From: Bradyrhizobium sp. Ghvi
GTDB lineage: Bacteria; Pseudomonadota; Alphaproteobacteria; Rhizobiales; Xanthobacteraceae
Direction of reading: 5' to 3'
Length of the DNA stretch: 64,000 bases
Assembly (NCBI RefSeq): GCF_900115265.1
Contig: NZ_FOVU01000004.1
Coordinates: 618,987-682,986 of the forward strand
In this document: piece after piece, positions 28,628 through 35,364 of the stretch
Layout of the letters: each line of letters starts with the position of its first letter
Position numbering within the stretch: the stretch's first letter is position 1
Made by a program: the position numbers and the translations under genes
Notes under the pieces: generated by a model
What the model was told of the DNA's origin: nothing
What the model saw: only the letters and a program-made list of their open reading frames with translations
Database searches by the model: none

Positions 28628-28745
28628 GTAGCGTGGGTGAGCCGAAGGCGTAACCCACCGCTGTTCATATCGCCCTGGGGCAGAAGAGGTGGGTTACGCT
28701 GGGCGAACTGCGCTTCGCGCCTTCGCCCAGCTAACTCACCCTACG
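28628..28745. repeat. Degenerate REP palindrome
   Basis: CGTAGCGTGGGTGAGCC...GTAACCCACC pairs with GGTGGGTTACGC...CTCACCCTACG. It is a diverged relative of the two elements flanking the RAYT gene at 33 kb, with a different internal spacer. It lies just past the ABC-operon stop and may terminate it. Confidence 0.7.
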
Positions 28746-30973: not shown

Positions 30974-31920
30974 GGGCCGCCCTCCCGGTTCGCCATGGTG
31001 CGGAACGAGAGCGCGGTGAGGCCCATCAGGGCGGCGAGCGTCAGGAGCGTCGCGGCCGAGGCTTTGCCGACGTCGAAATGCTCCACTGCCTGCTGATAGA
31101 TGTAGAACAGCACGAGATTGGTCGCATTGGATGGGCCGCCCTGGGTCAAGACGAAGACGTGGTCGACTTGCGTCACCGCGTTGAGCGTGGCGATCACGAT
31201 GACGAACAGGAAGGTGGGCTTGAGCTCCGGCAGAATGATGTAGCGCAGCCGCATGAAGGGGCCAGCACCGTCGAGATGCGCGGCTTCCATGACGTCCTCG
31301 GGCACCGCCTGGAGGCCGGCGAGGAAGAACAGCATGTAATATCCGGCGTTCTTCCAGATCGTGATGATCATGATCGCATAGAGCGCGATATCGGGGTCGC
31401 CGAGCCAGTTCGGCAGCACCGGCAGCAGGCGGCCGATATAGTGGTCGAGCAGGCCGACATTGGGCAGGAAGATGAACAGGAACAGCGCGGACGCCGCGAC
31501 CATCGGAATCAGCACCGGCAGGAACAGCGCGGCTCGCAACGCGCTGGTGACGGCGTTGGTGCGCGCCAGCGCCAGCGCAAACAGCAGCGCGAGGCCGATG
31601 CTCGGTATCGCGGTGCCGACGGCGTAGATGAGGTTGTTGACAACAGCGCCGGTAAAGGCGGAGTCCGCCAGCACCGCCGCGATGTTGTCGAGGCCGACGA
31701 AGCGCAGCGGCGCCTTCGGCGTTGCGCGCTGGTACAGCGCATCGATCAGCACGCGTCCCATCGCGCCATAGGTGAACAGCGCGAGGAAGACGAGCGAGGG
31801 CAGAAGCAGCAGATAGGCGGGAAGCGATGCCTTCAGGCGGGCGGTGAATCGCCTCGCGATGTGAAGGCGCGGCGGCGCCGAGGCTGCGACGGAGAGAGCC
31901 GCGGGTTCAGCGAGGGTCAT
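30970..31920 (-). CDS. Carbohydrate-type ABC transporter permease (UgpA/MalF-like)
   Basis: A 316-residue permease with about six helices. Its EAA loop reads QAVPEDVMEAAHLDGAGPFMRLRYIILPELKP. ATG 31920 is chosen because it overlaps the phosphodiesterase stop by 14 bases, the usual coupling; a start nine codons upstream is possible. The N-terminal ~35 residues are cytoplasmic. It pairs with the MalG-like permease; both need an ATPase that must come from elsewhere in the genome. Confidence 0.9.
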   Translation of the reverse strand: MTLAEPAALSVAASAPPRLHIARRFTARLKASLPAYLLLLPSLVFLALFTYGAMGRVLIDALYQRATPKAPLRFVGLDNIAAVLADSAFTGAVVNNLIYAVGTAIPSIGLALLFALALARTNAVTSALRAALFLPVLIPMVAASALFLFIFLPNVGLLDHYIGRLLPVLPNWLGDPDIALYAIMIITIWKNAGYYMLFFLAGLQAVPEDVMEAAHLDGAGPFMRLRYIILPELKPTFLFVIVIATLNAVTQVDHVFVLTQGGPSNATNLVLFYIYQQAVEHFDVGKASAATLLTLAALMGLTALSFRTMANREGGP

Positions 31921-32773
31921 CTGACCGCGCCGGGAAATTGAGCGCATAGTCGCGGCCGTCCATTCCCTCGGGCGGATCGAACGGAAAGCGCAGACTGGTG
32001 TCGAGGAAATCGTGGCTGTGCACGACGAGGTTCTGATCGTCGATCAGCACGACGCCATAGGCCGGCGGCTCATGGCTCGCCAGATGGTCTTTCGCGTTGG
32101 CATCGAGCTCGAACCAGACCTGGTGGTTGGTGCCGCGCAGCGTCGAGAACGGGATCTTGCCGTAGCTGCCGAAGATCGGCCGGTGCACATGGCCGAAGAA
32201 GAGATGGCGGATGCGCGAACGATAGGGCGCGATCACCTCCGCGAATTCGGCACTTTGCTTCAGTCCGATCTCATCCATTGCATGCACGCCGACCGGGAAG
32301 GGCGGGTGGTGCATGAACACGACGAATTGCTGGTCGGCGGGCGCGGCGGCGAGCATCTTCGCGAGCCACTCGAAGCGCTTGGCGCACATCTCGCCGGCAT
32401 GGCTGGTCTCGTCCAGCGTATCGAGGAAGACGAACAGGCCGTGCTCGGTGGTGCGGGTGCCCTGGACAAAGCCGTTGGCATCGCGCGGTGCGGCCTTCAA
32501 TCCGTCGAGACAGGCCACGCGCTTGTCGTGATTGCCGACCATGGCGATGTAGGGAATCTTCAGCGCCGACATCGCCTCGGCGAAGTTGGCGTAGGATTCC
32601 GGCTCGCCCCAATGGGTGAGGTCGCCGGTCACGATTGCAAAGGCGGCGTCCGACTGGTGTTTGTTGATGTCGGCGATCGCCGCATCCAGCCGGGCCCGCG
32701 GATCGAGCCCATAAAGCTTCAGCCCGGGGGTCGCCAGATGCGTGTCGGTGATGTGGATGAATTTGAAGGGCAT
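31907..32773 (-). CDS. Calcineurin-like metallophosphodiesterase (GpdQ/CpdA-type)
   Basis: A 288-residue class III phosphodiesterase. All metal-binding blocks are visible: FIHITDTHL (D-x-H), AIVTGDLTHWG (GDxx), MVGNHDKR (GNHD), FMHHPPFPVG, and LFFGHVHRPIFG (GHxH). Relatives hydrolyse glycerophosphodiesters (GpdQ) or cAMP. It is the first gene of the importer operon, with its 3' end inside the first permease gene. That context favours processing of an imported or exported phosphodiester, which is inference. Confidence 0.88.
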   Translation of the reverse strand: MPFKFIHITDTHLATPGLKLYGLDPRARLDAAIADINKHQSDAAFAIVTGDLTHWGEPESYANFAEAMSALKIPYIAMVGNHDKRVACLDGLKAAPRDANGFVQGTRTTEHGLFVFLDTLDETSHAGEMCAKRFEWLAKMLAAAPADQQFVVFMHHPPFPVGVHAMDEIGLKQSAEFAEVIAPYRSRIRHLFFGHVHRPIFGSYGKIPFSTLRGTNHQVWFELDANAKDHLASHEPPAYGVVLIDDQNLVVHSHDFLDTSLRFPFDPPEGMDGRDYALNFPARSDDPR

Positions 32774-32892: not shown

Positions 32893-32982
32893 CGTAGGGT
32901 GGATTAGCGGAGCGTAATCCACCTCTTTGCTTTCCGCTGGTTGAGAGAAGTGGTGGATTACGCTCCGCTAATCCACCCTACG
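32893..32982. repeat. REP/BIME-type palindrome, left of the RAYT gene
   Basis: Perfect 31-bp arms at 32893-32923 and 32952-32982 begin CGTAGGGTGGATTAGCGG and enclose a 28-base spacer. The same spacer and nearly the same arms recur at 33578-33669, on the other side of the transposase gene. Confidence 0.92.
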
Positions 32983-33042
32983 AAGTCGAGTTTGTCGCTA
33001 CGTATACGGTGATGCAACATCAAGTTGTGCTATCCATTGCGA

Positions 33043-33582
33043 ATGTCCCAGTATCGCCGCGCATTCGTTCCCGGAGGCTGCTGGTTCTTCACTGTGAACC
33101 TGCTGGACCGGCGGAGAACCCTGCTAACTGACGAGATCCCTATCTTGCGAGAGGCGATCGGCGCAACGCGCAAGAGCCATCCTTTCGAGATCGGCGCTTT
33201 CGTGGTTCTGCCGGATCATCTGCATGCGATCTGGAGACTGCCAGAGGGCGATGCCGACTTTTCCGTACGCTGGCGGTTGATCAAGACGCGCTTTGCCAAA
33301 GCGCTTCCCGCAGATGAGCGGCTGAGCGCCGTTCGCGTCGCACGGGCCGAGCGCGGCATCTGGCAACGCCGGTTCTGGGAGCATCTGATCCGCGATGAGG
33401 CGGATTACGCGCGTCATGTCGAATACTGCTACTACAACCCGGTGAAGCACGGTCATGTGTCGCGAGTATGCGACTGGCCGTATTCGTCGTTTCACCGCGA
33501 TGTGCGAGCGGGACTGTTTCCCGAGGATTGGGGCGGTGATGCGAAGATCGCAGGCGACTTTGGCGAGCGGGTGGGACCGTAG
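33043..33582 (+). CDS. REP-associated tyrosine transposase (RAYT, Y1/HUH family)
   Basis: A 179-residue single-strand DNA transposase of the TnpA-REP group, which moves or cleaves REP palindromes. The HUH metal motif is H59-L-H61 in VVLPDHLHAIWRLP; the presumed nucleophile is Y128 in HVEYCYYNPVKHG. The N-terminus YRRAFVPGGCWFFTVNLLDR is typical. ATG 33043 is preferred over a GTG six codons upstream. The gene is framed by two near-identical REP elements, and its TAG stop is supplied by the first bases of the right-hand element. It looks intact. Confidence 0.92.
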   Translation: MSQYRRAFVPGGCWFFTVNLLDRRRTLLTDEIPILREAIGATRKSHPFEIGAFVVLPDHLHAIWRLPEGDADFSVRWRLIKTRFAKALPADERLSAVRVARAERGIWQRRFWEHLIRDEADYARHVEYCYYNPVKHGHVSRVCDWPYSSFHRDVRAGLFPEDWGGDAKIAGDFGERVGP

Positions 33583-33669
33583 GGTGGATTAGCGAAGCGT
33601 AATCCACCTCTTTGCTTTCCGCTGGTTGAGAGAAGTGGTGGATTACGCCTTCGGCTAATCCACCCTACG
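33578..33669. repeat. REP/BIME-type palindrome, right of the RAYT gene
   Basis: Arms at 33578-33608 and 33637-33669 enclose the same 28-base spacer as the left copy. Arm centres differ (AGCGAAGCG against GCCTTCGGC), so the arms are mixed subtypes. It overlaps the last codon of the transposase gene. Confidence 0.92.
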
Positions 33670-33683
33670 GCATCGTGTTTGCC

Positions 33684-35156
33684 TTACGTCCCGCAGAACG
33701 TTTGCAACACCCGCTGATCCGGTAGCGGCGGATCGGCATAAGCCGTGTACTCCGGCTGATCCTGATACGGCCTCGCCAGCACCTTCACCAATTCTTCGAA
33801 CGGCGCGTAATCGTCGTCATTCACCGCGGCCTGGATCACGGCTTCGACGCGGTGGTTGCGTGGGATGAAGAGCGGGTTGACGGCATGCATCGCGGCTTGC
33901 CGCTCGGCCGGCGTCTGCGGCTCCAGCGCGATGCGCGCGCGCCAGCGTGCGGCCCATTCGTCGAAGGCTGCGGGCTCCATGAACTGCGCGCGCACGTCGG
34001 TGCTGTCATCAACGGTGGCGTCGCCGAGCTTGCGGAAGGTGAGAGTGAAGTCGGCCTGGTTCTTGGCCATGGCGTCGAGCAGATCCTGGATCAGCGCTTC
34101 GTCGCCGTCGCGTTCCGTGAACAGGCCGACCTTTTTGCGCAGCCCCGCCTGATAGGCGTTGCTGAACGTTTCGGAGAACGCGCCGAGAATGTCCTGCGCC
34201 TCCGCGACCGCCTTCTCCTGGTCGTCGGAGAACAGCGGCAGCAGGCATTCGGCGAGGCGCGTGAGATTCCACAAGCCGATGCGCGGCTGGTTGGCGTAGG
34301 CGTAGCGGCCCATCTCGTCGATGGACGAGAACACCTGTGAAGGGTTGTAGGCGTCCATGAAGGCGCAGGGGCCATAATCGATGGTCTCGCCTGAGATGGA
34401 GGAGTTGTCGGTGTTCATGACGCCGTGGATGAAGCCGACCAGCAGCCAGCGGGCGATGAGCTCGGCCTGCCGCGCGACGACACCGGCGAGCAGCGCGTGA
34501 TATGGTCGCTCGGCGTGAAGCAGATCCGGATAGTGCCTGGTGATGACGTGATCGGCGAGCCGGCGGATCGCGTCGGTGTCGCGGCGGACGGCAAAGAACT
34601 GGAAGGTGCCGACCCTGATGTGGCTCGAGGCGACGCGCGTCAGCACCGCGCCTGGCAGCACAGTCTCGCGGATGACGGGCTCGCCGGTGACGACGGCCGC
34701 GAGCGAGCGCGTGGTCGGAATGCCGAGCGCGAACATGGCTTCGCTGACGATGTATTCGCGCAGCACCGGTCCCAGCGCGGCGCGGCCGTCGCCGCGGCGG
34801 GAGAACGGGGTGGGTCCCGAGCCCTTGAGCTGGATGTCGCGGCGGATGCCATCGATGTCGATGACCTCGCCGAGCAGAATAGCGCGGCCGTCGCCGAGCT
34901 GCGGCACGAAATTCCCGAACTGGTGGCCGGCATAGGCCATGGCGATCGGATCGGCGCCTGATGGAACCGTCTTTCCGGCCAGGATCTCGGCGCCTTCCGG
35001 GGTCTCCAGCAGATCGGGATCGAGCCCGAGCTGGACCGCCAGGGGCCGGTTCAGCTTGATCAGCCGGGGCGCGGCCACGGGCGTCGGCGCGACGCGGGCG
35101 AAGAAGCTGTCCGGCAGGGCCGAATAGGAGTTCTGGAAGGGGAAATGGACCGTCAT
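33684..35156 (-). CDS. selO: SelO-family protein adenylyltransferase (YdiU)
   Basis: A 490-residue pseudokinase-fold enzyme that transfers AMP to Ser, Thr or Tyr of target proteins. Diagnostic stretches are [40 protein letters not shown] and [21 protein letters not shown], the last carrying the catalytic Asn and metal-binding Asp. It ends in QTFCGT, with a cysteine near the C-terminus where eukaryotic SelO has selenocysteine. ATG 35156 gives [11 protein letters not shown], the usual start; a longer frame upstream is not conserved-looking. It is divergent from aspS. Confidence 0.94.
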
Positions 35157-35364
35157 GGCCTCAAGATAGGGCTGGAACGCCTGATGGCAAAGGCTTGGGC
35201 CCAAATGGTCCAAAAAGAGGCCTTCGAGGCCCAAAACAGGGCGTTCCTTTGGTTGCCGCCTCGGGTTGCCGCTTTGGGCCTCGTCGGGTAAACCCTGCCG
35301 CAATTCGGACCGGTCGTTTCAGACCGTCCGATTCGTATCCTCCGACATTGATTTTGGGACGACC

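Follow-up and report, generated by a model that had tools for sequence, protein, structure and literature searches.

The window, as we call the whole 64,000-nucleotide stretch of DNA analysed here, contains a gene for a REP-associated tyrosine transposase (RAYT) located between an SpdA-like metallophosphoesterase gene and a gene for the protein adenylyltransferase SelO, with a REP dimer, or REPIN, on each side (Table 1). RAYT and SelO are convergent, and the right dimer lies between their ends. The SpdA-like gene product matched the SpdA model NF050112 (E=2.7e-69), although its 233.8 bits remained below the cut-off of 400. Alignment with orthologs placed the RAYT start at the ATG rather than at an upstream TTG at 33025.

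Table 1. Features of the RAYT locus (positions are those of the window; strand is left empty where none was assigned).
Feature	Position	Strand	Remarks
Third, diverged REP dimer, GGTGGGTTA-like type	28628..28744		Long loop in one arm
SpdA-like metallophosphoesterase gene, left neighbour	31907..32773	-	Pfam Metallophos, E=9e-17
Left REP dimer (REPIN, heads outward)	32893..32982		GTAG at 32894 (+) and 32981 (-)
Left dimer spacer	32924-32951		28 nt
RAYT leader	32983..33042	+	Read off alignments, without a statistic
RAYT (REP-associated tyrosine transposase)	33043..33582	+	179 aa, ATG start; NF047646, PDB 4er8
HUH motif H59-L-H61	33217-33225	+	Aligned with the 4er8 chain
Putative catalytic Tyr Y128	33424-33426	+	Aligned with E. 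coli Y115
Right REP dimer (REPIN)	33578..33669		GTAG at 33579; spacer 33609-33636
TAG stop of RAYT	33580..33582	+	T-A-G of the right dimer's GTAG head at 33579
SelO (YdiU) protein adenylyltransferase gene, right neighbour	33684..35303	-	Pfam SelO, E=4.9e-123

The RAYT protein matched the NCBIfam model NF047646 (E=2.4e-57, 192.9 bits against a cut-off of 80) and the solved E. coli TnpA-REP structure, PDB 4er8 (E=4.3e-57). It shares 53.6% of its residues with E. coli RayT, and both the HUH and Tyr motifs could be aligned: H59/H61 and Y128 match the E. coli protein, as the earlier note had supposed in assigning the HxH/Tyr motifs to the RAYT family. The position of Y115 in 4er8 comes from a hand count on the alignment; Y115F is the catalytic mutant used for the E. 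coli enzyme (PMC8266576). The likeness to the E. coli system extends to the GTAG head, the bulged REP stem, and the placement of the gene next to REPs, whereas the REPs of the window have a different stem sequence, form dimers with a 28-nt spacer to the left and right of the gene, and supply its stop codon. The best named matches of the protein (83-89%) come from Bradyrhizobium, in agreement with the note's description of a Bradyrhizobium-type genome. The Pfam model Y1_Tnp (PF01797) matched neither the RAYT at 33043-33579 nor anything else in its own genome. We therefore counted RAYTs with NF047646, and Pfam-based RAYT counts may be too low. By this model, the 7.93-Mb genome carries a single RAYT copy. 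Comparison of the window RAYT with 25 intact orthologs yielded dN/dS values of 0.050-0.108 (median 0.076), which are rough because dS is near 1. The gene is under purifying selection.

The left dimer consists of a 31-nt arm, a 28-nt spacer, and another 31-nt arm, and the right dimer of a 31-nt arm, an identical 28-nt spacer, and a 33-nt arm. The first 71 nt of the two dimers are 99% identical, with one difference. The spacer occurs in exactly two copies in the genome, allowing up to 3 mismatches. In single-strand DNA folding, none of 200 shuffles was as good as either gene-flanking dimer (z=-13.8 and -10.4). The third dimer begins with a GTAG containing 2 mismatches, and its other end contains 1 mismatch. 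The earlier note had described two near-identical palindromic elements of ~90 bp with a common 28-base spacer and 31-bp arms, a transposase stop formed by the first bases of the right element, and a third, diverged element at 28628. All of this held except for the arm length, which applies to three of the four arms.

In the wording of PMC3733652, the flanking dimers are HH dimers, with GTAG on the outside. They resemble the GTAG REPs reported there for Bradyrhizobium and Rhodopseudomonas in their GTAG end, their HH arrangement, and the presence of both short and long, self-complementary, GC-rich loops. Our guess is that the window REPs correspond to GTAG-14 of that work. Like the REPINs described for Pseudomonas fluorescens SBW25 (PMC3116915), they occur as inverted doublets that form a unit and a hairpin, with few singlets. 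In contrast to SBW25, the window genome has fewer of them, with 44 dimers found, and these fall into three length classes arising from long loops.

We examined the REP population of the genome using the 16-mer head GTAGGGTGGATTAGCG. With up to 2 mismatches, 39 + 39 hits were obtained, while a reversed control yielded 0, indicating that the repeats are not due to chance. At least 97 REP monomers were recognized (up to 3 mismatches), a lower bound because monomers were read only in stretches around head hits, and the arm sequence is thus repeated across the genome, as the note had presumed. Of these monomers, 88 are paired, forming the 44 dimers, and inverted pairs therefore constitute the majority of REPs, as expected of REPINs. 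Dimer lengths fall into classes of 83-91, 111-117, and 139-149 nt because the loops are either short or long. REPs with loops of 32-46 nt, many of them self-complementary, were also seen to share dimers with short-loop REPs (L070, L074, and L076). A stem could be read in 93 monomers, and in 84 of these the loop starts with GC and ends with GCG, leaving these bases unpaired as in a bulged REP. CT was found at +2/+3 past the stem in 60 of the 93, against a background of 5.1%, and at +5 in 35. In E. coli, the cleavage site of the enzyme is a CT adjoining the REP (PMC8266576). The CT signal could instead reflect shared ancestry of the spacers. In this tally, row B was dropped because one mismatch admits type A, and rows D, E, and F showed less sharp peaks than type A. 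Exact heads of GGTGGGTTA, the commonest REP in the genome, numbered 51, compared with 19 for GGTGGATTA, the type flanking the RAYT. By eye, at least 10 of the 44 dimers appeared to be mixed, with one GGTGGGTTA and one GGTGGATTA arm.

We then compared REP types with RAYT phylogeny across the genus. Based on the flanking REP stem, 107 of 110 RAYT loci could be typed, two mixed loci by majority: 24 as GGTGGATTA, 18 as GGCGGATTA, 42 as GATGGGT, 12 as GGTGGGCA, and 11 as CCCGGAT/CCCGCAT. No RAYT mainly flanked by GGTGGGTTA REPs was found among the 110. On a RAYT protein tree of 108 rows, the stem type changed 7 times, compared with a minimum of 5 and a shuffled mean of 58.7. Judged from these sequences, five REP stem types correspond to five RAYT clades, as RAYT-REP coevolution would produce, with each clade retaining its own stem within one genus.

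REP numbers were compared by counting exact heads in 146 genomes. The median count of GGTGGATTA heads, a few of which are the RAYT-flanking copies, was 9 in 19 genomes with an intact window-clade RAYT (including L050 and L051, which are 5-9 residues short), 10 in 5 genomes with a decayed one, and 1 in the 122 genomes without. The corresponding medians for GGTGGGTTA were 42, 36, and 5.5. Similarly, the median for GGCGGATTA was 10 where the second RAYT clade was present (18 genomes, broken copies included) and 1 in the 128 genomes without it. The counts are not fully specific, since GGTGGGTTA was also commoner with the second clade (20 vs. 6); GGCGGATTA was slightly raised with the window clade (3 vs. 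1.5). In genomes carrying only one of the two clades, medians for the window versus the second clade were 40.5 vs. 14.5 for GGTGGGTTA, 9 vs. 1 for GGTGGATTA, and 3 vs. 10 for GGCGGATTA. Two genomes without a window-clade RAYT were rich in GGTGGATTA (36 heads in G105 and 22 in G135). When kinship was controlled, five independent pairs remained, a number that cannot reach significance: on average, 1.6 differed in the expected way, 0.0 in the opposite way, and 3.3 not at all for GGTGGGTTA, and 2.0, 0.2, and 2.8, respectively, for GGTGGATTA. The proposal that RAYT presence tracks REP number thus holds for the counts across the genus, whereas most of the kinship-controlled pairs show no difference.

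We consider it very probable that the locus is a REPtron, in which cognate REPINs accompany a RAYT of the same type as E. coli TnpA-REP that is inherited vertically ("domesticated"). This reading draws on the family, the motifs, the genomic site, the REP population, the match between clade and stem, and the rarity of the REP-supplied stop, all as read from the sequences compared. By analogy with the E. coli enzyme, the RAYT would most likely act as a Y1 HUH nuclease on folded, single-stranded REP DNA, binding the REP through its GTAG head and bulged stem and cutting at the nearby CT. It may slowly copy or rearrange the REP dimers of the genome, whereas the RAYT gene itself remains in place and would be retained for some benefit. 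Both DNA cutting and REPIN copying are activities we would expect of the RAYT from its relationship to TnpA-REP. The system is of a known kind with an unusual local arrangement, rather than a new one.

We analyzed the genomic site of the RAYT clade across the genus. All 35 clade loci examined, 81-100% identical and including the window, lie at the SpdA-SelO site; this sample omits a 79% match in G168 and any fragments in 119 genomes that were searched at E<=1e-80 only. Of these loci, 33 adjoin both the SpdA-like gene and SelO, while within the stretch read L168 shows only the SpdA-like gene and L182 only SelO. Several copies of the clade are broken, with inner stops in L045, L203, and L208 and partial alignments in L126, L168, L171, and L182. 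We searched for SelO in 30 genomes in which the RAYT was absent, weak, or of another type. The SpdA-SelO site without RAYT was found in 10 of them, and the other 20 showed no SpdA within the stretch. Alignment with relatives, evaluated against 500 shuffles, detected upstream REP or leader traces at 7 of these 10 sites. For L089, L091, L094, L102, and L103, four of them via the leader, no shuffle was as good, and for L090 and L092, 6 and 7 of the 500 were; the same alignment test found no REP or leader trace in L095, L101, and L104. Because 7 of the 10 keep such traces, the RAYT-less sites look like losses. Empty sites of the kind the earlier note had in mind do exist, but they appear to reflect loss. 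Two RAYT-less arrangements next to SelO stand out: L091 (G062) has a single dimer whose spacer is shortened, possibly a single-dimer scar, and L096 (G075), by eye, has an apparent half REP, with another gene replacing the RAYT.

On a SelO tree of 61 loci, RAYT-less sites are interspersed with RAYT-bearing ones. At least 9 changes between presence and absence are needed across the 41 loci whose site could be read, on a tree that represents a single gene and has many weak branches; the well-supported branches alone force at least 5 changes for the RAYT-less group. Repeated loss is the simplest reading of the RAYT-less sites, and within the genus the RAYT seems to be inherited vertically, with repeated losses. 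Among 72,556 plasmid records searched at the protein level, 24 contained relatives, none of them from Bradyrhizobium. RAYTs have been described as single-copy and vertically inherited (PMC8049555), whereas for RAYT-class genes at large horizontal transfer has been held to be more parsimonious (PMC6006769). Our data for the genus fit the former view. They provide, within one genus, an example of a RAYT lineage that stays at one chromosomal site and is seemingly lost repeatedly.

An alternative is that the unit is an active transposon, with the dimers as its ends and the RAYT moving itself. The near-identical flanking dimers, the intact and selected gene, and the patchy presence in the genus (a RAYT match at E<=1e-80 in 59 of 265 genomes, counting two RAYT clades) would all be compatible with such an element. 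However, an active transposon would not be expected to show one copy in the genome and one site in 35 of 35 examined loci, nor absences that are interspersed with presences in the SelO phylogeny and leave traces at 7 of 10 sites. The left dimer is not a standard end of the unit either, since it was found in only 2 of the 24 clade loci scanned (the window and G014) and in none of 11 further loci. Elements of the IS200/IS605 kind are recognized by several copies at different sites that move as a unit, and a search for these found only the single copy in this genome and the one site in the 35 loci examined. We therefore regard active transposition as highly improbable. The earlier note had left open whether the unit was domesticated or mobile; domestication agrees with the data, whereas mobility is unsupported given the one copy, the single site, and a dN/dS of ~0.08.

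Within the REPtron, the stop codon of the window RAYT represents a local peculiarity. RAYTs of the clade usually terminate near codon 177, and in relatives that retain both the gene end and the downstream REP, 5-48 nt commonly separate the two. The TAG of a REP is used as the stop in 3 of 121 RAYT loci (110 examined by script and 11 by eye, some truncated): the window, L045, and L143. In L045 (G014), the fused stop is at the SpdA-SelO site, and the RAYT is broken, being read past an inner stop. In L143 (G095), a separate REP-supplied stop ends a RAYT of another clade. Screening of 80 further contig-derived loci, a few of them from genomes in the earlier count, flagged 7, of which 5 were convincing (L219, L240, L245, L270, and L279); L215 and L231, with loops of 23 and 39 nt, were not. 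We thus rejected the idea that a REP stop is a general feature of REP-RAYT units; it is a rare state. In the window, the gap between the usual codon-177 stop and the right dimer is nearly gone, so that the TAG of the dimer is the stop.

REP heads also terminate other genes in this genome. At least 120 open codons precede the head in the TAG frame in 25 of 97 cases, compared with 14 and 12 cases for the two remaining frames. We scanned 7 of 26 listed frames, picked by eye as protein-like, together with the RAYT against Pfam. Six of the seven matched a family ending 5-16 residues before the REP's TAG, namely QueA, UDG, an FlK-like thioesterase, two MFS proteins, and Pth (L013, L016, L017, L028, L062, and L076), and for the remaining frame no Pfam family was matched. 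The effect is known, as PMC3733652 (Di Nocera 2013) reports that GTAG REP ends often supply the TAG stop to adjoining ORFs, and the legend of its Figure 8 marks flanks overlapping the 3' ends of tyrosine transposase genes.

The REP stop might in addition serve as a control, with a stop at the foot of a hairpin stalling terminating ribosomes and lowering RAYT expression. This would be compatible with the REPtron and would mean that the transposase is influenced by its own REP. RNA folding of 33560-33672 predicts a hairpin of -66.1 kcal/mol in which the stop is paired. According to work cited in PMC5082802, ribosomes in E. coli stall where a REP lies no more than 15 nt from a stop codon. A separate REP stop exists in another clade (L143), and REP stops appear convincingly at five of the 80 further loci. 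We nevertheless consider such control unlikely: the fusion is rare, one of the three RAYTs concerned is broken, and closeness alone explains it, because six unrelated genes here also terminate in this head.

It is also conceivable that the role of the REPs is confined to termination or mRNA stabilization between convergent genes, with the RAYT as a relic. The position of the right dimer between the RAYT and SelO ends, its strong RNA fold, and the several broken RAYTs in the clade are in keeping with this idea. However, a relic would not be expected to maintain a constrained coding sequence (median dN/dS as given above), nor would every RAYT clade be expected to retain its own REP stem, making this explanation very unlikely compared with the REPtron.

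Finally, we compared the left and right dimers with each other. The window and G014 have in common the fused stop at codon 179 and the left dimer, whereas relatives carry a single REP to the left of the RAYT. Within a genome, left and right spacers are identical in the window, and their cores have an identity of 0.91 in G014. Between the two genomes, core identity is 0.74 (window left vs. G014 right) and 0.77 (G014 left vs. window right), in a clade where spacer-core identity between loci has a median of 0.74, a 90th percentile of 0.82, and a highest value of 0.97. Dimers also flank the RAYT left and right at 8 loci of the GATGGGT clade, where identity between loci reaches a maximum of 0.80. 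Left and right dimers exceed this maximum in direct orientation in L147 and L150 (0.93 and 0.81), and as reverse complements in L143 and L144 (0.87 and 0.83), whereas L132, L151, L159, and L163 do not exceed it. Because the dimers are alike within a genome and unlike between genomes, these sequences, from few loci, suggest gene conversion or repeated local duplication across the RAYT gene. In the window, the presence of a same-spacer dimer to the left of the gene is a second local change; the order of the local events, and duplication or gene conversion as their cause, we infer only.

A further-reaching possibility is that flanking REPINs are kept alike by gene conversion or by RAYT-driven copying, direct or inverted, and that a REP fused in frame, with the stop in its hairpin, becomes a cis control of its transposase. 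We regard this combination as unlikely. In the parts of the literature on RAYTs and REPs available to us, including that on gene conversion, no report of homogenised flanking REPINs was found. The arrangement shared by the window and G014 opens REPIN copying at RAYT genes to direct test. The RAYT leader bears on the same comparison. Its last ~23 nt match the leaders of orthologs, and the first ~20 nt are similar to the flank of the right dimer on the SelO side, of which they are probably a duplicate.
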